IMG/VR virus record: IMGVR_UViG_3300010885_054611 | Span: 1-23,248 of that record | Direction: 5' to 3' (one strand) | Length of the DNA stretch: 23,248 nt | Source of the DNA: a virus | Shown: positions 3,626 to 12,889 of the stretch, one piece after another | Numbering within the stretch: the first letter of the stretch is position 1 | Layout: each line of letters starts with the position of its first letter | Notes under the pieces: generated by a model | Seen by the model: the letters and a program-made list of their open reading frames with translations, nothing else | The model's database searches: none | Told to the model about the DNA's origin: nothing | Program-made: the position numbers and the translations under genes

Positions 3626-4345
3626 TTAATACGTCTTAAGACAACGTACGCCATATGTTACACTTATAGGCATAATGCCGCCAGCGTTTAATGTTACTGT
3701 AGATGCTCCATTAGACGGATTAGTTACACTCCGTATATAGGGCACACAAGTAAGTGGTTGCGAGAGTGCTGAACCATTACCGGGTGTAATAATAAAATCA
3801 GTAACCTTTAGTGTTGTTATTTGTGAGGGTATACCTGTTATTGAACCGGTGTTTTCCTTTGAACTATTATATGCAGATATTGTAATAGGATCTAATACAT
3901 AATCAAAGATATTTTTGTTAGCTTGAGCAGATACAGCTGTAAGTTGTGTAAAAAGACTTAGATATATTGGATTTTGCTTGTAGTCAACACTTGTCGGTAC
4001 TGCGCTTGTTATCAATCCATTCTGAATTGTAAAACTATCGTAATAATCTCTAGTAGAAGTATTTAGAGGGGTGGTAATACCGAGCTTTCCATTAGATGTA
4101 CAATACTGTGATGAAGATATACTTACAAATCTTGTATTAGTAAACTGCGCACTATTACCCGTAAGTGAACCAACAACTGTAGCATTACCATTGATATCTG
4201 TTTTTATAACATTAAGCGCACTAAATGAAATAATCTGTGTGCCGTTATTTGTTTGTAAAATAAAATAATCAGAGTTTGCTGCAAGCTGCGCTTTTGGAAG
4301 ATTAGTTATATTTACAGGAGTACTATTTGTTAGATTTGTTGCCAT
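3626..4345 (-). CDS. Putative virion structural or tail-fibre-like protein
   Basis: 239 aa, low in Cys and rich in Ser, Thr, Asn, Ile and Val, with beta-rich composition typical of phage fibre or decoration proteins. The N-terminus contains ITNLPKAQLAANSDYFILQ (about 13-31) and TDINGNATVVGSLTGNSAQF (about 49-68), resembling the repeated start of tail-fibre and structural proteins in marine T4-like phages. The C-terminus (GGIMPISVTYGVRCLKTY) looks like a terminal beta motif. No signal peptide or membrane segment is seen. It is transcribed opposite to the sugar block, with only 21 bases between its start codon and the first glycosyltransferase start. A CTAAATA element 6 bases before its ATG suggests late expression, consistent with a structural role. 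The exact role is inferred. Confidence 0.55.
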   Translation of the reverse strand: MATNLTNSTPVNITNLPKAQLAANSDYFILQTNNGTQIISFSALNVIKTDINGNATVVGSLTGNSAQFTNTRFVSISSSQYCTSNGKLGITTPLNTSTRDYYDSFTIQNGLITSAVPTSVDYKQNPIYLSLFTQLTAVSAQANKNIFDYVLDPITISAYNSSKENTGSITGIPSQITTLKVTDFIITPGNGSALSQPLTCVPYIRSVTNPSNGASTVTLNAGGIMPISVTYGVRCLKTY

Positions 4346-4366: not shown

Positions 4367-5251
4367 ATGCGAAATAAAACTATGTCTGAAAAAATAGGAG
4401 TTGGAATAATTACATGCAATAGGCCAGCATATTTAAAAGGATTACTTGATTCATTTCCACAGGAATGTGATATTGATGAATTAGTTATCGTAAATGATGG
4501 TAATCCTTTGAGTAAAGACTTTCCTTATGTTAGTGAGGATTACGATTTTAGTCATGTAGCCTGGATTCAAAATAAAGTAAATCTCGGTGTTGGTAAATCT
4601 AAAAATAGAGCGCTAAAATACCTTTATGATAAAGGTTGTGATTATATCTTCTTATTTGAAGATGATATGATTATATTGGATCCTACCGTTTTTAAGCAAT
4701 ATATCAATGCATGTCATGTTAGTGGTATCCAGCATTTTAACTACGGACCAGGGTCACCTTTTAATCGCAAGCAAACTATTCAGAATTTTGATTTACATAA
4801 TCGACATCTTCTTAGTCAAGATACTGAGCCAAACCCTAAAATGCTTCTCGAGTATAAAACGTGTAAGATTGCGCTTTATGAACACACTGTTGCTATGTTT
4901 TCCTTTTTTACGAGAGAAATAATCGAAAAAGTCGGTTATATTGATGAGCAATTTTATAATGCTTGGGAACACGTAGATCATACATATTGTATTATTAAAG
5001 CCGGTTATCATCCACCTTTCTGGTGGTTTGCTGATTTGGCTAATAGTCATGAATTATTAACTGAAGCACCAGGAGCTATTGATAATTCGTCCATTGCAAA
5101 TAAATCTGATCAGTGGGAGAAGAATGTTTATAGTGGTAGGGAGTTATATCTTAAAAAACACGGACACTATCCTAACCAACCCCCATATATTAGTAAAGAA
5201 CAAGTAATTGAAACCGTAAAAAAAATTAAAAATGATTATAGCAGAAAATGA
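4367..5251 (+). CDS. Family 2-type glycosyltransferase
   Basis: GT-A fold glycosyltransferase of 294 aa. The nucleotide-binding part has VGIITCNRPAYLKGLLDSF (about 12-30), LVIVNDG (39-45) and NLGVGKSKNRAL (about 72-83). FLFEDDMII (95-103) holds the metal-binding EDD at the DxD position. The C-terminal half has DEQFYNAWEHVDHTYCIIKAGY, matching the acceptor-side (G)xD/E segment of family 2 enzymes. Donor and acceptor are not evident. A second ATG at 4382 (MSEKIG) is an equally plausible start, since neither has a Shine-Dalgarno sequence. It is the first gene of the sugar block and overlaps the methyltransferase gene by 20 bases. Confidence 0.8.
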   Translation: MRNKTMSEKIGVGIITCNRPAYLKGLLDSFPQECDIDELVIVNDGNPLSKDFPYVSEDYDFSHVAWIQNKVNLGVGKSKNRALKYLYDKGCDYIFLFEDDMIILDPTVFKQYINACHVSGIQHFNYGPGSPFNRKQTIQNFDLHNRHLLSQDTEPNPKMLLEYKTCKIALYEHTVAMFSFFTREIIEKVGYIDEQFYNAWEHVDHTYCIIKAGYHPPFWWFADLANSHELLTEAPGAIDNSSIANKSDQWEKNVYSGRELYLKKHGHYPNQPPYISKEQVIETVKKIKNDYSRK

Positions 5252-5822
5252 ATTAAACAGTCAAAATTTTCAAGAATTTGAAAGCTTGCTCATCGAGTAC
5301 CAAAAGCTCGATGCAAGTAAGGTGATTGAGATAGGATCACTCTACGGCTGGGCTTTGCAACATTTTATACATTATAGCCAAGAGGGATCCACGGTATTAG
5401 CTATTGATTTACCGGTTCGAAATTTTGTTGGGCCATCCGATTGGAGAGTTGAAAAACAGGAAAGAAATTATAAAGAAGTTTGGCCACAATGGGCTAAAGC
5501 AAATAAAACTAAATTATTTTTAATACCTGATATATCACAAAAACAAAAAACTCTCGAAAAAACAAAAGAAATTTTTAACAACAAAGAAATTGACTTTCTT
5601 TTTATAGATGGTGATCATACTTATAATGGCGTCAAACAAGACTATGAAATGTATGGCCCTCTTGTTCGTAAAGGTGGTATTATTGCTTTTCACGATATAG
5701 GTTTAAACGAAGAAGGAGGTGTATATAACCTCTGGAACGAAATTAAAGTTACAAAAAAAGAATACAAGGAATTTTTATTTGAACAAAATAATGAAAAAGG
5801 CATAGGCCTATTATATGTATAA
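5232..5822 (+). CDS. Class I SAM-dependent methyltransferase (Methyltransf_24-like)
   Basis: 196 aa. Motif I is VIEIGSLYGW (31-40), motif II falls near VLAIDLP (55-61), IDFLFIDGDHTYNGVKQDY (120-138) carries the family's DGDH, and LVRKGGIIAFHDIG (144-157) is the post-core strand. This is the pattern of small sugar-locus or cephalosporin-hydroxylase-like methyltransferases rather than DNA methyltransferases, as no NPPY or PC motif is present. The likely substrate is a sugar or glycoconjugate, given seven glycosyltransferase-like neighbours. It starts inside the upstream gene (20-base overlap) and ends 6 bases before the next one, indicating co-transcription. Confidence 0.8.
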   Translation: MIIAENELNSQNFQEFESLLIEYQKLDASKVIEIGSLYGWALQHFIHYSQEGSTVLAIDLPVRNFVGPSDWRVEKQERNYKEVWPQWAKANKTKLFLIPDISQKQKTLEKTKEIFNNKEIDFLFIDGDHTYNGVKQDYEMYGPLVRKGGIIAFHDIGLNEEGGVYNLWNEIKVTKKEYKEFLFEQNNEKGIGLLYV

Positions 5823-5823
5823 T
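5818..5823 (+). promoter_or_regulatory. Possible internal -10 element (TATAAT)
   Basis: A perfect TATAAT overlaps the end of the methyltransferase gene and lies 5 bases before the ATG at 5829. No convincing -35 is seen. The position matches the other near-start -10 elements of the window but could be chance in AT-rich DNA. Confidence 0.3.
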
Positions 5824-5828
5824 ATTTT

Positions 5829-6593
5829 ATGAGTAAACAAACACCAAAAATTGCTATATTAGTACCATCAAGAGAAAGAATGAATAAGAGATTAACCCTT
5901 ATTTCATCTATTATTACTTCTGTAAAAGATATAAACAATGTTACACTCTACCTAGGTGTCGATGAAGATGATCCTACAATGAATTTAGCAGATAAACTTG
6001 CAGCCGCTATACCATTTGTTAAAATTGTAAAGATACAAAACGAGGGTAAGTTTATCGGTCTTGGTAAGATGTGGAATATTCTTGCTAATAATTCTACTGA
6101 AGATATTATATCAATGATTGGAGATGATATGGTGTTTAAGTCGCAAAACTGGGATGAGGAAATTATTAAGGAGTTTATCGATTGCCCGGAAGATAATATT
6201 AAAGCTATACACTGTAATGATGAGTGGCATAAATCAAAACTAGCTGTTAATATATTTTGTCATAGAAAATATGCTGAAGTTATGGGTGGCTTTATGCGTG
6301 AAGAATTTAAAATTAATTGGGTCGATCAGTGGCTTCATCAATTATTCAGCGCATTCGGTAGATTGACGTATCGAGATGATATTATTATTGAACACCGTCA
6401 CTGGTCCATTGGTAAAGGTAATAAAGATGGTACGGTTGATCGTATGTATATTGCAGATGGACCGGATAAGATTAGTGATAAGCTCTGGTATGAATTAACA
6501 GATGAACGCATAAGCGATGTAAAAAAGCTTGCAAAATACCTCAATCAAGAACCCGATTGGACAAAAGTTGACACTGTCAAAATAGATTTATGA
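5829..6593 (+). CDS. Glycosyltransferase-like protein (GT-A fold)
   Basis: 254 aa. IAILVPSRERMNKRLTLISS (8-27) is a family 2-type first strand and helix, LGVDEDDPT (42-50) follows the second strand, and ISMIGDDMVFKSQNWDEEI (94-112) gives a GDDM motif at the metal site. The later HRKYAEVMGGF and NWVDQWLHQLF segments fit the acceptor region, with IIEHRHWSIGK near the end. Substrates are unknown. The upstream gap is 6 bases, and its stop overlaps the next start (ATGA). No membrane anchor is seen. Confidence 0.72.
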   Translation: MSKQTPKIAILVPSRERMNKRLTLISSIITSVKDINNVTLYLGVDEDDPTMNLADKLAAAIPFVKIVKIQNEGKFIGLGKMWNILANNSTEDIISMIGDDMVFKSQNWDEEIIKEFIDCPEDNIKAIHCNDEWHKSKLAVNIFCHRKYAEVMGGFMREEFKINWVDQWLHQLFSAFGRLTYRDDIIIEHRHWSIGKGNKDGTVDRMYIADGPDKISDKLWYELTDERISDVKKLAKYLNQEPDWTKVDTVKIDL

Positions 6594-7441
6594 TCGTACA
6601 AATTACATTAACAAAAAACGAATCGTTTTTACTTAAAGAAATGTTACCTATCTGGCAGCGGTTTGCAGATGGGTTTGTGTTTCTAAATAACGACTCTACC
6701 GATGATACATTAGAGTTTTTGCAAGCTAATAAAGAAAAATACAATATATTAGAAATACTCTCACCGAACGCAAATATAAGGCCTGAAGAATATGAAACAA
6801 ATGTTCGACAAAAATTATTTGATGCTGCGCGTAAATACACCGATAAAATTATCTGTATGGATTCAGATGAATATCTCGATGGCACTTGCACAAAAGAACA
6901 GCTCGAAAAAGTGCTTGATAAAAATCCCGATACCACACTAATGCTTAAATGGATACAATATACCAGTAAGAATCAGAGACGTGTTGATTCTCACTGGAGA
7001 GAGGTTTTTCATGATAGAGTAGGATCTTACAAAGAAGATGCAAAATTTGGAACTGCTTTTAGTCATTCCGGTCACGTTCCATCGGCATCGAGAGCTGTAC
7101 GAGTAGATCCTGAACAACTATTTATTGCTCATTTACAGTGGTTGGATAAAAGATGGGTTGGTATTAAACAATATTTTTGGAAAGTATGGGATTATGTAAA
7201 TAATCTCGAACACGGTGTACATATAATAAATCGCAGCGATTACGATGTATCAGTTAATAACTTTGCATGGGAATATGAAGATTTTAATGTACCGTTAAAA
7301 ATAAGAGAAGATATATACGCAATACAAAGCGTAAAAGATAATTATAAGTTACAATATATAGTTGAACAGACAAAAAAATATAATATAGCAAACCTCAATG
7401 ATTGGGGGATGGGTATACACGATTTTGCAATTAAGCAATAA
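6590..7441 (+). CDS. Family 2-type glycosyltransferase (Glyco_tranf_2_4-like)
   Basis: 283 aa. It opens with VQITLTKNESFLLKEMLP (3-20), then FVFLNNDSTDDTLEFL (29-44) and KIICMDSDEYLDG (86-98). DSDE is the metal-binding DxD site. This order (KNE, NDSxDxT, DxDE) matches the Glyco_tranf_2_4 group of soluble transferases. The C-terminal half is rich in Trp, Tyr and His (HLQWLDKRWVGIKQYFW), plausible for sugar contacts. It overlaps the preceding gene by 4 bases. A 45-base gap follows, holding a promoter-like element before the next gene. Confidence 0.78.
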   Translation: MIVQITLTKNESFLLKEMLPIWQRFADGFVFLNNDSTDDTLEFLQANKEKYNILEILSPNANIRPEEYETNVRQKLFDAARKYTDKIICMDSDEYLDGTCTKEQLEKVLDKNPDTTLMLKWIQYTSKNQRRVDSHWREVFHDRVGSYKEDAKFGTAFSHSGHVPSASRAVRVDPEQLFIAHLQWLDKRWVGIKQYFWKVWDYVNNLEHGVHIINRSDYDVSVNNFAWEYEDFNVPLKIREDIYAIQSVKDNYKLQYIVEQTKKYNIANLNDWGMGIHDFAIKQ

Positions 7442-7454
7442 CGATTTTAACATA

Positions 7455-7461
7455 ATAAATA
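7455..7461 (+). promoter_or_regulatory. T4-late-like element (ATAAATA) inside the sugar block
   Basis: ATAAATA sits in the only sizeable gap of the first part of the sugar block. The context CATAATAAATACAT is close to the element before the neck gene (TTAATAAATACAT at 18716-18728). The ATG at 7487 is 25 bases downstream, leaving a short leader. Confidence 0.45.
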
Positions 7462-7486
7462 CATAAGAAAGATATAATAAAGAAAT

Positions 7487-8182
7487 ATGTTTGTAATACC
7501 GTGTAAATATAGCGCAGAAGCTCGTTTTGTATTTGACGTCGTTTCAGATATTAAAAAATATCATCCAGGCGAAAAAATTGTCGTCGTAGATAGTGCATCG
7601 CAGGATAAAACATATTTAACGTTATTAGAAAAAGAAGGTGTAATCGTAGAAGATATAGATAATATAAATTGGTGTGTCGGAGCTTATTGGCATGTGTATA
7701 AAAAATATCCTAACGAAGCTTTTTATTTTTTTATGCACGATTCAATGAGAATTAAAGATTCATTGAATGATATTAAAGATAAAGAATTAACAATTATTTA
7801 CTATTTTAATAGAAGGGTATGTAATTCATTTAACCAGTGGTCCTCGATAATAGAAGAGCAAACAACATTTAAATATAATGGTGATGGATTGGGGTGCTAT
7901 GGACCTGTATTTTTTTGTAAAAACCAGGTAATGCAATCTCTTCTCAATGCTGGTGTAGATAAATTACTACCAACAAATAAACAAGAAATTGGTTTTGCAG
8001 AAGGTGCATATGGATTTTTCTTTGAACAGTTAGGTTTTGATTTAACTAAATGCTCATTATATGGCGATGTATTAGAAGATGAAAGTCCTGCAGGTAGATC
8101 GGGATCATATCCACATAAGACATCATGGCAGCATCCGGTTGAAAAATTTTATGGTCATCATTTTACATCGGATAGATTGTGA
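7487..8182 (+). CDS. Putative glycosyltransferase, divergent GT-A type
   Basis: 231 aa. FVIPCKYSAEARFVFDVVSD (2-21), KIVVVDSASQDKTYLTLL (30-47) and YFFMHDSMRIK (80-90) follow the order of a GT-A core: first strand, nucleotide contact and metal site, here MHDSM instead of DxD. GLGCYGPVFFCKNQVMQSL (about 135-153) is an acceptor-side segment, and the C-terminus is rich in His and Ser (SWQHPVEKFYGHHF). I infer a transferase acting on a nucleotide sugar. The missing acidic pair makes metal dependence uncertain. The stop overlaps the GTG start of the next gene by 4 bases. Confidence 0.55.
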   Translation: MFVIPCKYSAEARFVFDVVSDIKKYHPGEKIVVVDSASQDKTYLTLLEKEGVIVEDIDNINWCVGAYWHVYKKYPNEAFYFFMHDSMRIKDSLNDIKDKELTIIYYFNRRVCNSFNQWSSIIEEQTTFKYNGDGLGCYGPVFFCKNQVMQSLLNAGVDKLLPTNKQEIGFAEGAYGFFFEQLGFDLTKCSLYGDVLEDESPAGRSGSYPHKTSWQHPVEKFYGHHFTSDRL

Positions 8183-8823
8183 ATAACGTATTATTTTTTC
8201 ATGTTGCAACTATTGGAAACTATCAACAAATCGTTGATAGAGTCTTTTCTTTGTTAGAAGTTAGCGGATTATATACTGACTTGCATAGAATTTTTGTTAA
8301 TATTGCCGGAGATAAAGATGTGCGTATAGACTTAAAGGATAAAAAAATAAAGCTTTTTCCAAAAAGATCATCTTTAGATAATTTTGAATTTTCTACGCTA
8401 TGTTATTTGAGACAATATGCTTTTATGAAAGAAGCAAACCTTTTATATATACACACAAAAGGTTGTAGCACTCCTTCAAATCCTTGTATAGATGAATGGA
8501 GAGAATACATGTTATATTTCAACATAATTCAATACAAAAAAGCTTTAAAATTTTTATCAAATAACGCAGCTGTTGGAGTAGATCTTGTTGATGAGCCAAC
8601 AAAGCATTTTTCTGGTAATTTTTGGTGGTCAAAGTCTTCTCATATAAGGGCTCTGTCTAGTATAGAAGATCAACCATTAATAATAAGTGATAGACATAAA
8701 TGTGAATTCTGGATTTGCAGTCGTAAAGACAGTAAATATGCATCAATGCACGATAGTGGTATTAATGTGTATAGTAGACATTTAATTAGATACCCAAAAA
8801 GTAATTATGAAAACAACAATTAA
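8179..8823 (+). CDS. Putative glycosyltransferase with HTKG and GNFWW motifs
   Basis: 214 aa beginning at GTG 8179 within a GTGA overlap. The central LLYIHTKGCSTPSN (88-101), WREYM (107-111) and HFSGNFWWSKSSHIRAL (143-159) form the signature of a widespread but poorly characterised group found beside glycosyltransferases in viruses and bacteria. The order is compatible with a GT-A fold in which HTKG lies at the metal site and GNFWW in the acceptor pocket. This is inference from motif layout, not proven activity. The gene overlaps the next one by 17 bases, keeping it in the same transcription unit. Confidence 0.55.
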   Translation: MNNVLFFHVATIGNYQQIVDRVFSLLEVSGLYTDLHRIFVNIAGDKDVRIDLKDKKIKLFPKRSSLDNFEFSTLCYLRQYAFMKEANLLYIHTKGCSTPSNPCIDEWREYMLYFNIIQYKKALKFLSNNAAVGVDLVDEPTKHFSGNFWWSKSSHIRALSSIEDQPLIISDRHKCEFWICSRKDSKYASMHDSGINVYSRHLIRYPKSNYENNN

Positions 8824-9754
8824 TTTTATACCACATTCACGACCACAATATGCGCAATCATTTTATAATGAAATAACATCAATTAGCGATAATGTAAAAC
8901 GAAATATTAATATTAATCTTTTAATATCCGACTCTAATAGTAGAAATTGGAAGTCAGATAAAGATTTTTTATCAAAGCACGGTATTGAAACAAACGTATT
9001 CTTGGTTCAAGGAGGTGATTATATCACAAAAATAAAAACAGCCTTTAATAATAGCGGTGAATATATAGTAAAGCTTGATGAAGATATCTTTTTATCGTCA
9101 AAGTTGTGGGAATTTTTCTTAACTAATTTAATAGTACTAGAAGATAGAAAAAACTTATTCCTCTCACCTTTACTCTCCACGGGTATACCTAGTGTTGATT
9201 ATTTTGCAGAACAATTTTTAACTGCAGATGAAAGACAAGAATTAAATACAATTTATTTACAAACTCCACTACCCAATATATGGGGCGCTGATTACAGCTC
9301 TCTTGAGCAACACACAATAAAATCAACCGCATGGAACCATAATGAATTCTATAACGCAGTATCAAAAATTAATCATTTTTACAAAGGTGTTCACCCTGTA
9401 AGGTTTTCACCTAAAGCTCAAAGATTTATACAGAAATGCGTTATTAAAAGATTTGATAAAATTATAGAAGCGGATAACTTTACACTTCATATAGACAAAA
9501 AACCTTATCTTTGTAATAGTATATTTGGTATAAAAAAAGATACATGGGGGGAGATTATTAACAATAAGTCGCTTTACCGAGACCCATTTGATGAAGTACC
9601 GTTCAATCTTTACATGCAGCAGAACGATCTCAACATGGTATTTATTAATAATGGATTTGGAATACATCCATCATATAATACTGTTAACATGTTTGGAGAT
9701 AACTATCAACACATCTCTGATGAGTTTTTTAATAATGAATACTTTAAACGATAA
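8807..9754 (+). CDS. Putative glycosyltransferase (DED-type GT-A)
   Basis: 315 aa, the longest transferase-like protein of the block. INFIPHSRPQYAQSFYNEI (5-23) is the first strand, INLLISDSNSRNW (36-48) the second, and YIVKLDEDIFLSS (86-98) holds DED at the metal site. The central part (about 130-230) has no motif I recognise. The C-terminal NSIFGIKKDTWGEI and LNMVFINNGFGIHPS resemble the acceptor region of fibre- or glycan-modifying transferases. The gene body is notably AT-rich. It starts 17 bases inside the upstream gene, and the following gene begins 20 bases before its stop. Confidence 0.6.
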   Translation: MKTTINFIPHSRPQYAQSFYNEITSISDNVKRNININLLISDSNSRNWKSDKDFLSKHGIETNVFLVQGGDYITKIKTAFNNSGEYIVKLDEDIFLSSKLWEFFLTNLIVLEDRKNLFLSPLLSTGIPSVDYFAEQFLTADERQELNTIYLQTPLPNIWGADYSSLEQHTIKSTAWNHNEFYNAVSKINHFYKGVHPVRFSPKAQRFIQKCVIKRFDKIIEADNFTLHIDKKPYLCNSIFGIKKDTWGEIINNKSLYRDPFDEVPFNLYMQQNDLNMVFINNGFGIHPSYNTVNMFGDNYQHISDEFFNNEYFKR

Positions 9755-10460
9755 ATGGACTTTTGGTATTACTAGCTTTGATATAACACTGAGCGATCTT
9801 ACTGGCTTAGATATAGTAAAGAACGAAAGATTACACGCATGTATACAGAGCATTAAGAGTCTCAATATTTTAAATGAAAATTATGAAATTATTGTTATTG
9901 GTGGTAATACACTTGGTAAAGATGTGACAATAGACGGTGTGCAGTATATTCATTTTGATGAAAGTATTAAACCAGCCTGGATTACAAAAAAGAAAAACCT
10001 TCTCATCGAAAGAGCACAATTTGAAAATATAATATTAATACACGATTATGTGTCCTTCGATGAAAATTGGTATAATGGATTCATATCCTTTACTACAGAT
10101 TGGGATGTTTGTATGTGTAAAATACGTAATAAAGATAACACTAGATGGAGAGATTGGTTACTTTGGTGGTGCGATAAAACGCCATACCGCATAGAAGAAA
10201 ACGGCACACTACTTGCGCCAAATCGTGTTATGTATGATGATACTAATTATATTAATAATGGTCAGATGTATATTAGTGGTACTGTTATTATTGGTAAAAA
10301 AACATATCTACAGCAAAACAAGCTCAATGAAGATCTCTGCTGGGGCCAGGGTGAGGATTGTGAATGGTCGGGTCGATGCAACAAGACATGGAATTATAAA
10401 ATGAATACAGGATCCACGTTGCGTTTATTAAAACAGCATCAAACAGCAATTGACGTATGA
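9735..10460 (+). CDS. Putative glycosyltransferase (GT-A like)
   Basis: 241 aa from the ATG at 9735 (MNTLNDKWTFG). The open frame extends further left to 9588, but that part lies out of frame within the preceding gene and reads as non-protein-like sequence, so the later start is chosen; it gives the 20-base overlap typical of this block. ENYEIIVIGGNTLG (48-61) is the nucleotide-side strand, ENIILIHDYVSFDENW (97-112) has HDYV at the metal position, and YISGTVIIGKKTYL followed by CWGQGEDCEWSGR supplies a GED acceptor-side acidic pair as in family 2 enzymes. Donor and acceptor are unknown. The stop overlaps the next start (ATGA). Confidence 0.62.
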   Translation: MNTLNDKWTFGITSFDITLSDLTGLDIVKNERLHACIQSIKSLNILNENYEIIVIGGNTLGKDVTIDGVQYIHFDESIKPAWITKKKNLLIERAQFENIILIHDYVSFDENWYNGFISFTTDWDVCMCKIRNKDNTRWRDWLLWWCDKTPYRIEENGTLLAPNRVMYDDTNYINNGQMYISGTVIIGKKTYLQQNKLNEDLCWGQGEDCEWSGRCNKTWNYKMNTGSTLRLLKQHQTAIDV

Positions 10461-11830
10461 TTAAGCACATTATATTTGATCTTGATGGAGTACTAATTGA
10501 TGCACGTGATATACATTATCACGCGCTAAATAAGGCACTTCAAAACGTTGATATTAATTTTGTTATCTCTAAAGAAGAGCATCTTCAAATATACGATGGC
10601 CTTCCAACAAGTAAGAAACTCAAATTAATCACCGAAAAAAAAGGCCTACAATCATCTTTATATGACAAGATATGGCAAGATAAACAAATATATACGATGG
10701 ATTATATCTTGTCAAGTACTACTACTGATCAGAGAATCATAGATATACTACAACTCCTTAAAACCGACGGGTACACTCTTAGTGTTGCATCAAATTCAAT
10801 ACGCGAAACTGTTAAAGCTGTTCTCCAGAAGAAAGGGTTTTTCGATTATATGGATTTTTTCTTTTCGAACGAAGATGTTAAAAAATCAAAACCAAGTTCA
10901 GAAATTTTCCTTAAGAGTATGATTGAAGCAGGTGTCGATCCTATTGAATGTCTTATTGTAGAAGATTCAAATATAGGCAAGCAAGCAGCTCGTAGTTCAG
11001 GAGCTCATCTCTGCTCCGTACTCTGTACAAGTGATGTGACATACGAAAAAATAAAAAATACAATAAACATGATTAACAATACTAAACAAAACACAAAATG
11101 GCAGGGTAGTGACATTAATATTCTTATACCCATGGCAGGAGCGGGTACAAGATTTGAAAAAGCTGGATACACGTTTCCAAAGCCCCTTATTGATGTTAAA
11201 GATAAACCCATGATTCAAGTCGTTGTCGATAATTTAAATATTGACGGACAATATATCTTTATTACTCAAAGCTCGCATTATGATAAGTATAATCTTAAAG
11301 ATACACTTAATTTAATTTCACCTAATTGCAAAATTATAAAAACAAGTGGGCTCACAGAAGGCGCCGCGTGTACAACATTATTAGCAAAAGAATATATTGA
11401 TAATAATAAACCGTTACTACTTGCAAATTCAGATCAATACGTTGATTGGGATAGTAACGATTTTATGTGGTCGATGATGGCGGATGATGTAGATGGTGGT
11501 ATCCTCGTATTTGAATCCACACATCCAAGATGGAGCTTTGTTAAGCTTGACGAAAATAATAACGTTGCTGAAGTTGCTGAAAAAAAACCAATTAGTAATC
11601 TTGCAACTGTTGGCATATACTTTTGGAAAAAAGGGTCAGATTACGTAAAATATGCTGAGCAAATGATTAACAAGAATATTAGAGTCAATAATGAATTTTA
11701 TGTATGTCCTGTTTTTAATGAGGCAATACAGGATGGCAAGAAAATGAAAGTATTTAAAATTGAAACTAAAGATATGTGGGGCATTGGTACACCTGAGGAT
11801 CTCAATCACTTTCTTGAAAACCATATATGA
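10457..11830 (+). CDS. Fused HAD phosphatase / sugar-1-phosphate nucleotidylyltransferase
   Basis: 457 aa with two domains. Residues 1-200 are a HAD hydrolase of the beta-phosphoglucomutase-like type: FDLDGVLID (7-15, nucleophile D8 and acid D10), SVASNS (109-114), the KKSKPSSEIF lysine region (142-151) and IVEDSNIG (167-174). Residues 220-457 are a nucleotidylyltransferase: ILIPMAGAGTRF (222-233) with PKPLI (241-245) form the GxGxRxxx-KP signature, LLANSDQYVDW (321-331) has the metal-binding Asp, and ATVGIYFW lies further on. The pair could mutate or dephosphorylate a sugar phosphate and then activate it with an NTP, supplying the donor for the neighbouring transferases. Which sugar cannot be told. 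It overlaps both neighbours by 4 bases. The fusion is continuous, with no stop or frameshift at the junction (about 200-219). Confidence 0.8.
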   Translation: MIKHIIFDLDGVLIDARDIHYHALNKALQNVDINFVISKEEHLQIYDGLPTSKKLKLITEKKGLQSSLYDKIWQDKQIYTMDYILSSTTTDQRIIDILQLLKTDGYTLSVASNSIRETVKAVLQKKGFFDYMDFFFSNEDVKKSKPSSEIFLKSMIEAGVDPIECLIVEDSNIGKQAARSSGAHLCSVLCTSDVTYEKIKNTINMINNTKQNTKWQGSDINILIPMAGAGTRFEKAGYTFPKPLIDVKDKPMIQVVVDNLNIDGQYIFITQSSHYDKYNLKDTLNLISPNCKIIKTSGLTEGAACTTLLAKEYIDNNKPLLLANSDQYVDWDSNDFMWSMMADDVDGGILVFESTHPRWSFVKLDENNNVAEVAEKKPISNLATVGIYFWKKGSDYVKYAEQMINKNIRVNNEFYVCPVFNEAIQDGKKMKVFKIETKDMWGIGTPEDLNHFLENHI

Positions 11831-12243
11831 TTTTAATATCACATAGAGGCAACCTCACCGGACCTGATATAGAGCGTGAAAATCAACCACGTCATATACA
11901 TGAATGTTTAAATAAAGGTTTAAATGTTGAAATAGATGTCTGGTATAAGGACGGTTTATTCTTTCTCGGTCACGATACACCTCAATATGAGGTGTCTTCT
12001 TGTTTTTTAAAAAATCAAAAACTTTGGTGTCATGCCAAAAACCTTGATGCGTTGTATAAAATGGCTGATAGTGGTAGCATACATTATTTTTGGCATCAGA
12101 AAGACGACTTTACGCTTACTTCACAAAACATTATATGGACGTACCCTGGAAACCCTGTGACGCTAAAGTCTGTAATTGTAACTGATAGTAAAATAATAGA
12201 TGCCTGTTATGGCGTTTGTACAGATTACCCGCTAGAGGCTTAA
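11827..12243 (+). CDS. Short glycerophosphodiester phosphodiesterase-like (PI-PLC-like) protein
   Basis: 138 aa, against about 240 or more for bacterial GlpQ/UgpQ enzymes. ISHRGN (4-9) gives the catalytic HRG, ERENQP (16-21) the Glu-Asn pair, NVEIDVWYKDG (33-43) the metal-binding ExD, and FLGHD (46-50) the second catalytic His, so the N-terminal active-site half is intact. FWHQKDDFTLTSQ and IIWTYPG (about 97-118) follow. The remaining barrel strands are missing or very compact. It could cleave a phosphodiester linkage in a glycan or lipid head group. It ends the sugar block: 4-base overlap upstream and a 61-base gap with a promoter downstream. Confidence 0.65.
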   Translation: MILISHRGNLTGPDIERENQPRHIHECLNKGLNVEIDVWYKDGLFFLGHDTPQYEVSSCFLKNQKLWCHAKNLDALYKMADSGSIHYFWHQKDDFTLTSQNIIWTYPGNPVTLKSVIVTDSKIIDACYGVCTDYPLEA

Positions 12244-12270: not shown

Positions 12271-12298
12271 TTGATTTTTGTGGGTAATATATTATTAT
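12271..12298 (+). promoter_or_regulatory. Putative sigma70-type promoter of the DUF366-like gene
   Basis: TTGATT (12271-12276), 16 bases, TATTAT (12293-12298), 6 bases, ATG 12305. Hexamers and spacings are identical to those before queE at 2087. The gap 12244-12304 holds no other feature I can identify. Confidence 0.5.
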
Positions 12299-12304
12299 AT
12301 TGAT

Positions 12305-12889
12305 ATGATTATTAACGTACCACTATACGACGGCGATCTTATTCACTCACGCTTTGCTTATAAGCATTTTCGCGATAAGACACTACCTATTGGTAATATT
12401 GTAGCTTTTAGAGCGCCTATGAAGGTAGAAGCTGAAGGTATGATTGATAATGAGGATATTCTTAACGCTGATTATATCTATAGTGATGACGCGATTAATT
12501 TTTGCTGGGAAATTCCAAACCTCGATTCGTTCGGTGCAGTAGCGTTTCAACGTTTATTAAATACGCAGATTGCAAATATTTTGAGCGCGAAGTACCTTAA
12601 ATCACCTATTGAAGTTGATGGTGACGATCTAATTGTACATAGAGAGCATAACCAGGGTGGAGTAACACAGATGAAGGGTAAGTGTAGTGTTAGTATTACC
12701 TATTCGAAGAATAATGTAGCTCTCGGCCATACAGGTATTAATATTACTGCAGGAAAGAAGGCTCCAGCGTTTGCTTATTCAACTAACCTCTCTGAGGAAC
12801 AAGCCACCAGCTTTATGAATGATGTTATTCATTTGTTTTATGCAATGTGTGACGATATCTTTATTGCTACAACAAAAGTTATTTCTTAA
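12305..12889 (+). CDS. DUF366 family protein
   Basis: 194 aa from ATG 12305; the frame extends to a TTG at 12278, but the ATG fits the promoter spacing and the family start. YDGDLIHSRFAYKHF, GNIVAFRAPMKVEAEGMID, NADYIYSDDAINF, IEVDGDDLIVHR and GHTGINITAGKKAPAFAY follow the conserved layout I recall for DUF366, a mostly archaeal and bacterial family of unknown function. No catalytic role is established to my knowledge. It lies between the sugar block and replication genes, and its stop shares a base with the start of the gp62-like gene (TAATG), so they are co-transcribed. Any link to the 7-deazaguanine genes at the other end of the window is speculation. Confidence 0.65.
   Translation: MIINVPLYDGDLIHSRFAYKHFRDKTLPIGNIVAFRAPMKVEAEGMIDNEDILNADYIYSDDAINFCWEIPNLDSFGAVAFQRLLNTQIANILSAKYLKSPIEVDGDDLIVHREHNQGGVTQMKGKCSVSITYSKNNVALGHTGINITAGKKAPAFAYSTNLSEEQATSFMNDVIHLFYAMCDDIFIATTKVIS

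Follow-up and report, generated by a model that had tools for sequence, protein, structure and literature searches.

An exchangeable glycan-gene locus with constant edge genes in an uncultured T4-like phage

Ten consecutive genes (g1 to g10, all on the plus strand) occupy positions 4367 to 12243 of the window analysed here, which is the entire 23,248-base linear virus record IMGVR_UViG_3300010885_054611. They are predicted to encode seven glycosyltransferases, one S-adenosylmethionine (SAM)-dependent methyltransferase, a fused HAD-nucleotidyltransferase and a miniature GDPD-type phosphodiesterase. Comparison with related viral contigs shows that the locus is a cassette-exchange site with constant edge genes, g1 and g3. 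Since related viruses swap most genes at this fixed site, the sugar with which a phage coats itself or its host probably differs from strain to strain.

Gene exchange and conserved order at the locus

The exchange is seen in G011, the closest relative of the window by PhoH (97% identity) and portal protein (87%). This contig keeps g1 (83%) and g3 (69%), and a stretch of about 7.7 kb takes the place of g4 to g10. The genes in it are largely of glycan type and include FkbM and other methyltransferases and matches to models of GT32 type (Gly_transf_sug), GT11 and RXYLT1; of ten replacement genes scanned, five gave no match. Similarity at the DNA level between the window and G011 ends at position 6520 and returns at 12303, immediately ahead of the following start codon, and a search of G011 for g9 was empty, as reading the contig confirmed. 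In G001, a 158-kb relative, the portal is 81% identical and the gene at 12278 80% identical over its aligned part, and identity is lower for the block genes (g1 43%, g3 56%, g6 59%, g9 72%, g10 53%). Across seven related contigs, g1 and g3 are present in all seven, g9 and g10 in six and g6 to g8 in five, and 26 of the 38 gene families at the locus occur in one contig only. G001 and G003, whose scores hardly differ in any of the comparisons, possibly represent a single phage type, which puts the effective number of contigs nearer six. The methyltransferase gene g2 was not found at the other loci compared, and g4 has a relative in G002 (58% identity).

Where the interior is shared, its order is shared as well. 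Among viral contigs retrieved by searches with g5 or g6, the order is g5-g6-g7-g8-g9-g10 in L169, g1-g3-g4-...-g6-g7-g8-g9-g10 in L225, and g1-g3-...-g6-g7-g8-x-g9-g10 in L222 to L224. We found 51 loci with g5, of which 29 also have g9 and 34 have g10 within about 6 kb. This repetition of the same genes in the same order indicates that the arrangement is more than chance, and the conserved order would be consistent with a complex, ordered oligosaccharide as the product. The genes are also tightly packed, as the preliminary description had reported and the open reading frame (ORF) calls bear out: seven of the nine junctions overlap by 4-20 bp (20 bp at g1/g2 and g7/g8, 17 bp at g6/g7, and 4 bp at g3/g4, g5/g6, g8/g9 and g9/g10), with gaps of 6 bp at g2/g3 and 45 bp at g4/g5.

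The block sits between PhoH/QueE/kinase genes and gp62/GroES genes, outside the tail-fibre module. To its left lie QueD, PhoH, QueE and a thymidylate-kinase-like gene; to its right are genes for a gp62-like clamp loader, a GroES-like protein, a helicase, a tail sheath stabiliser (gp3-like) and the portal (gp20), followed by genes that we read as gp21-gp23 from their order and sequence. Between PhoH and QueE, G001 carries one more gene (L304:8696-9646), for a nucleotide-sugar dehydratase/epimerase, that is missing from the window. Among cultured phages, the best portal matches, in Pelagibacter phage HTVC008M and in Synechococcus phages, are just 31-36% identical, and the source, a virus of bacteria, therefore belongs to a distant, uncultured T4-like lineage.

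At the left border of the cassette, a gene on the minus strand (3626-4345) points away from g1, the two start codons being 21 bp apart. Its product, which we call fibre-like from sequence character, has no PHROG match, and no cultured-phage relative was found. The gene is fast evolving, being 52% identical in G011 whereas its neighbours reach 79-97%, and G001 holds it as two tandem, divergent copies (L304:11350-12781). The right border is formed by a conserved plus-strand gene without an assigned function (12305-12889), which is 80-84% identical in close relatives and gave no match in a PHROG search.

Predicted functions of the ten proteins

The preliminary description had counted at least three clear family 2 transferases, which is a little too many. 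Two pass their Pfam cut-offs, g1 (4367-5251; PF00535, 29.2 bits against 23.3) and g4 (6590-7441; PF13704, 30.7 bits against 27.5); the third, g3 (5829-6593), falls below the Pfam cut-off and is classed as GT2-like by its match to phrog_14945 (9e-25). The constant gene g1 has homology to Myrna gp234 in the N-terminal part of the latter (profile E-value 1.6e-21) and probably carries out the first, acceptor-proximal step. Between g1 and g3 lies g2 (5232-5822), a SAM-dependent methyltransferase of the Methyltransf_24 family (PF13578, 5e-15) with a probable role in sugar O-methylation.

The other four transferases are divergent. Profile-profile comparison among g5 to g8 gave no convincing links, and we therefore relied on fold prediction and family scans. 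By family scan, g5 (7487-8182) is a GT2-related glycosyltransferase: 22 of the 30 members of its family, drawn from viral contigs and SAR11, match PF00535 (Glycos_transf_2), the best at 1.8e-7. A late-promoter-like sequence, NATAAATA, lies upstream of g5 at 7454 and was given no weight, base composition predicting about as many such sequences in a comparison made without a shuffle control. The predicted fold of g6 (8179-8823, GTG start; AlphaFold confidence score pLDDT 96.5) is GT-A-like, with GtrB as the best Foldseek match (2.2e-4, TM score 0.50) and glucuronyltransferases and wider members of the GT-A/nucleotidyltransferase fold also matched at about 2e-4 and TM scores of about 0.5, so that the modelled fold is clear and the enzyme class less so. 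For g8, the listed TTG start at 9588 falls inside g7, and the alignment with relatives begins near the ATG at 9735; the resulting protein (~9735-10460) has a predicted GT-A fold (pLDDT 82.8) that matches AvpGT, TarP and other GT-A transferases at E-values of about 1e-9. This gene lies immediately 5' of g9 in 27 of the 35 loci that hold it. Finally, g7 (8807-9754) gave no significant database match and is a probable glycosyltransferase by its DxD motif (LDEDxF), strictly kept in 25 of 25 relatives.

Far from mostly lacking a GT-A fold, then, the members that the preliminary description had called divergent include two with GT-A-like models (g6 and g8), one from the Glycos_transf_2 family (g5) and one, g7, that has the invariant DxD alone. 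Taken together, the fold and family evidence for g1, g3, g4, g5, g6 and g8 and the DxD motif of g7 support six of the seven transferases and make the seventh probable; for all seven, sugar transfer from an activated donor is the function predicted from sequence and models.

Next to these genes is a pair that we predict to act in donor synthesis. The HAD phosphatase and nucleotidyltransferase proposed earlier are both present, not as separate genes but as one fused protein, g9 (10457-11830), with a HAD domain resembling beta-phosphoglucomutase (PF13419, HAD_2, 3.7e-27) and a nucleotidyltransferase domain (PF00483, NTP_transferase, 1.6e-11). The motifs of both halves are intact, with D8, D10, K145, E169, D170 and the GAGxRF...KP region invariant in the alignment. 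The closest structures are beta-phosphoglucomutase and 4evw, and no characterised close relative was found. Its partner, g10 (11827-12243), gave no match in a Pfam search, and a profile of g10 with its cyanophage relatives matches GDPD structures at E-values of 0.004-0.01 over the E-x-D/H-D region; the catalytic motifs HR, E-x-D and H-D are invariant in the alignment. The usual GDPD enzyme has a full-length barrel with an E-x-K motif. Because g10 is only 138 residues long, without the full-length barrel, and has H-x-K (H69, K71) in place of E-x-K, we class it as GDPD-like and not as a standard GDPD. GDPD-like proteins from phages and from bacteria have the H-x-K motif largely in common (with N in a single bacterial copy), and this suggests that they are one functional family.

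The pair is widespread. Relatives of g9 occur in cyanophages (54-56% identity), and in at least 80 viral contigs (57-68% over the best segment); bacterial copies are found in, among others, SAR11, Legionella, Marinimicrobia and a Prochlorococcus single-cell genome. Of the g9 loci, 74 of 88 in viruses and 9 of 21 in bacteria have a g10-type gene, and a full-length GDPD-like gene at seven more bacterial loci brings the bacterial total to 16 of 21. Several bacteria with a GDPD-like gene have HAD and nucleotidyltransferase as separate genes. In Pelagibacter HTCC9565 the g9/g10 pair adjoins a g5-type gene, and g10, g9 and g5 lie side by side in SAR11 genomes (Pelagibacter L097:9559-12144 and L101:9555-12149), which amounts to the phage module in minimal, cellular form. 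In two Legionella genomes a LicD gene overlaps the start of the g9 homologue by 4 bp (L091:9132-11400, L093:2716-5060), with no GDPD nearby; the two genes appear to form a unit adding a nucleotide-activated phospho-compound. In a quick tree of g9, whose open forks and long branches allow broad statements only, the copies of Prochlorococcus AG-355-G23 (L090) and a Flavobacteriaceae metagenome-assembled genome (L089) fall within phage clades, possibly because genes were transferred or because the assembly includes a phage contig. A literature search for a known pathway combining HAD, nucleotidyltransferase and GDPD returned nothing direct. The nearest scheme comes from Haemophilus, in which GlpQ supplies choline for LicC/LicD decoration (PMC10434233); it is unsupported for g9/g10, as the block has neither choline kinase nor LicD.

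Families and folds thus agree with the proposed assembly line of donor synthesis, transferases and methyl capping. That the block supplies most parts of such a line holds for the soluble enzymes; it contains no lipid-carrier transferase, flippase, polymerase or ligase. By hydropathy, none of the ten proteins has a membrane-like hydrophobic segment, and a screen of 175 ORFs in G001 found no polytopic candidate for any of these components.

Candidate acceptors of the glycan

We tentatively suggest that, during infection, the enzymes of this cassette-exchange locus build an oligosaccharide in the host cytosol, one specific to the strain. In this model g9, with g10, would provide a single nucleotide-activated building block, by a chemistry whose details are our inference: the HAD half of g9 may interconvert or dephosphorylate a phospho-sugar or phospho-alcohol, which the nucleotidyltransferase half would activate, and g10 may supply or trim a phosphodiester substrate. 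The remaining donors would be taken from the host. The constant g1 and g3 would probably carry out the acceptor-proximal steps, and the interchangeable middle genes would set the distal sugars, one of which g2 would methylate. Since all ten proteins look soluble, the acceptor would be reached in the cytosol.

With somewhat less than even confidence, we propose that this acceptor is a phage structural protein, most likely a fibre. Several features are consistent with a virion acceptor: the enzymes all look soluble, the adjoining fibre-like gene evolves fast, G001 has a second glycan cluster among large genes of its tail/fibre region, and the constant gene g1 is homologous to gp234 of Myrna, whose virions are reported to be glycosylated (PMC12363180). 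In the same study, Che8 gp110 is named as essential for capsid glycosylation (PMC12363180). The second cluster of G001 (~33.7-41.8 kb; L300:14256-19789 and L301:294-2740) contains GT25, GT8-like, GT10, FkbM, N-acetylglucosamine-type and HtrL genes. A further precedent is provided by chloroviruses, whose capsid is glycosylated by virus-coded soluble enzymes. Other points weigh against a virion acceptor. Substrate, product and acceptor are all inferred; g1 was considered as a homologue of Che8 gp110 and no relationship was found; an action of Myrna gp234 on virions is putative; and the fibre-like gene has no recognised family. In addition, bacterial relatives of g9 adjoin surface-glycan genes (LicD, WavE, FkbM), which fits the host surface equally well.

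The host surface is a close second as the target, one that we rate only somewhat below a virion protein, the evidence being split between the two. In this reading, phage enzymes working at the cytosolic face would lengthen or modify the lipid-linked O-chain or capsule unit of the host; export would be left to the host, and the altered surface would block adsorption of competing phages. Remodelling of this kind is the published reading for pelagimyophages (PMC7029224). It is also in keeping with the occurrence of g9/g10 in SAR11 itself, with the Legionella g9 beside LicD, and with the resemblance of the fixed-edge exchange to bacterial O-antigen loci. However, O-antigen-converting phage systems such as GtrABC have membrane components, a flippase and a membrane transferase, and by hydropathy the window block has no membrane-like segment and G001 no polytopic candidate; a lytic T4-like phage would, moreover, have limited time for re-coating its host.

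Glycosylation of DNA, in which the transferases would build a glycan on modified phage bases as protection against restriction, has precedents in T4 and other phages, and queuosine-type genes (QueD and QueE in the window) adjoin the block. We nevertheless consider it highly unlikely, because G001 lacks a hydroxymethylase-family gene and has a probable 7-deazaguanine DNA pathway. T4-type glucosylation needs an alpha- or beta-glucosyltransferase and a hydroxymethylase, and the thymidylate-synthase family is the source of known hydroxymethylpyrimidines. No block gene matched either glucosyltransferase family in Pfam and PHROG scans, in line with the preliminary description, and no thymidylate-synthase-family gene (PF00303) was found in the 157.9 kb of G001, which may be incomplete and is a different phage from the window; the same search was positive in G006. 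The AGT and TET/JBP searches were run without a positive control. Instead, G001 has a 7-deazaguanine set of FolE, QueC, QueD and QueE together with a DNA guanine transglycosylase homologue (45% identical to an annotated phage protein), and the Que genes stay while the block is swapped. The probable 7-deazaguanine DNA modification genes of G001 lie at L303:6719-7465, L304:4904-5542, L304:7109-7774, L304:9659-10396 and L306:832-1641.

That the block is acquired host glycan genes filling the head without selected function, an idea raised for cyanophage lipopolysaccharide (LPS) clusters (PMC3037559) and compatible with the highly variable gene content, is very improbable given that the genes are all open, tightly overlapping and conserved in order across contigs at 43-72% identity, that the catalytic residues of g9 are invariant, and that all seven contigs compared hold g1, g3 and further, largely glycan-type genes at the locus.

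Relation to known systems

Clusters of glycosyltransferase genes are already known in T4-like aquatic phages: in pelagimyophages they lie in a hypervariable host recognition cluster in which GT8 is reported to dominate (PMC7029224), and in large cyanomyophages LPS genes are clustered, near phoH in P-SSM2 (PMC3037559). The window shares with these phages a hypervariable glycan region and, with P-SSM2, its position near PhoH. In contrast to them, its locus lies outside the tail-fibre module and has two constant edge transferases and the g9/g10 donor module, and its transferases are GT2-type where those of pelagimyophages are mainly GT8. Kanaloavirus S-CAM9, Makelovirus S-PRM1 and phages B23 and DSL-LC03 likewise have a fused HAD-nucleotidyltransferase (54-56%) and a mini-GDPD (43-50%) among transferases; unlike the window, their blocks have no detectable relatives of its seven transferases or methyltransferase and lie near transaldolase and hli/psbA genes. 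Mycobacteriophages Che8, Corndog and Myrna, in which virion glycosylation is known, also encode soluble transferases, Myrna gp234 being related to g1 in its N-terminal part, but the window shows no Che8 gp110 relationship, has far more genes and is known from genes alone. In bacteria, sets of HAD, nucleotidyltransferase and GDPD (SAR11, Marinimicrobia, Burkholderiales and others) bring the same three activities together, in several cases, unlike the window, as separate HAD and nucleotidyltransferase genes with a full-length GDPD; Legionella differs in having LicD and no GDPD nearby. As far as these sources show, two features are new: the pattern of exchange between fixed edges, and the recurring module of a fused HAD-nucleotidyltransferase with a mini-GDPD.

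A broader proposal, which we regard as speculative and unlikely as a whole, is that the locus acts as a 'serotype locus' of the phage: at a fixed site, the initiating transferases would stay constant and the interior would be swapped, so that each strain places a different glycan on its own fibre or capsid. This glycan would be built in part from a donor, possibly a nucleoside diphosphate-activated phospho-alcohol or rare sugar, that is made by a new pathway of HAD-nucleotidyltransferase and mini-GDPD common to phages and SAR11.

Glycan clusters are common in aquatic phages, and their product and purpose are obscure. At the locus described here, constant genes can be told apart from swappable ones and both are tied to a recurring donor module; the locus also points to a nucleotide-activation pathway, as yet uncharacterised, that SAR11 has as well. 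Because the donor module recurs in cultured cyanophages, the targets of phage glycosylation and the variation of the glycan can be tested on existing isolates.

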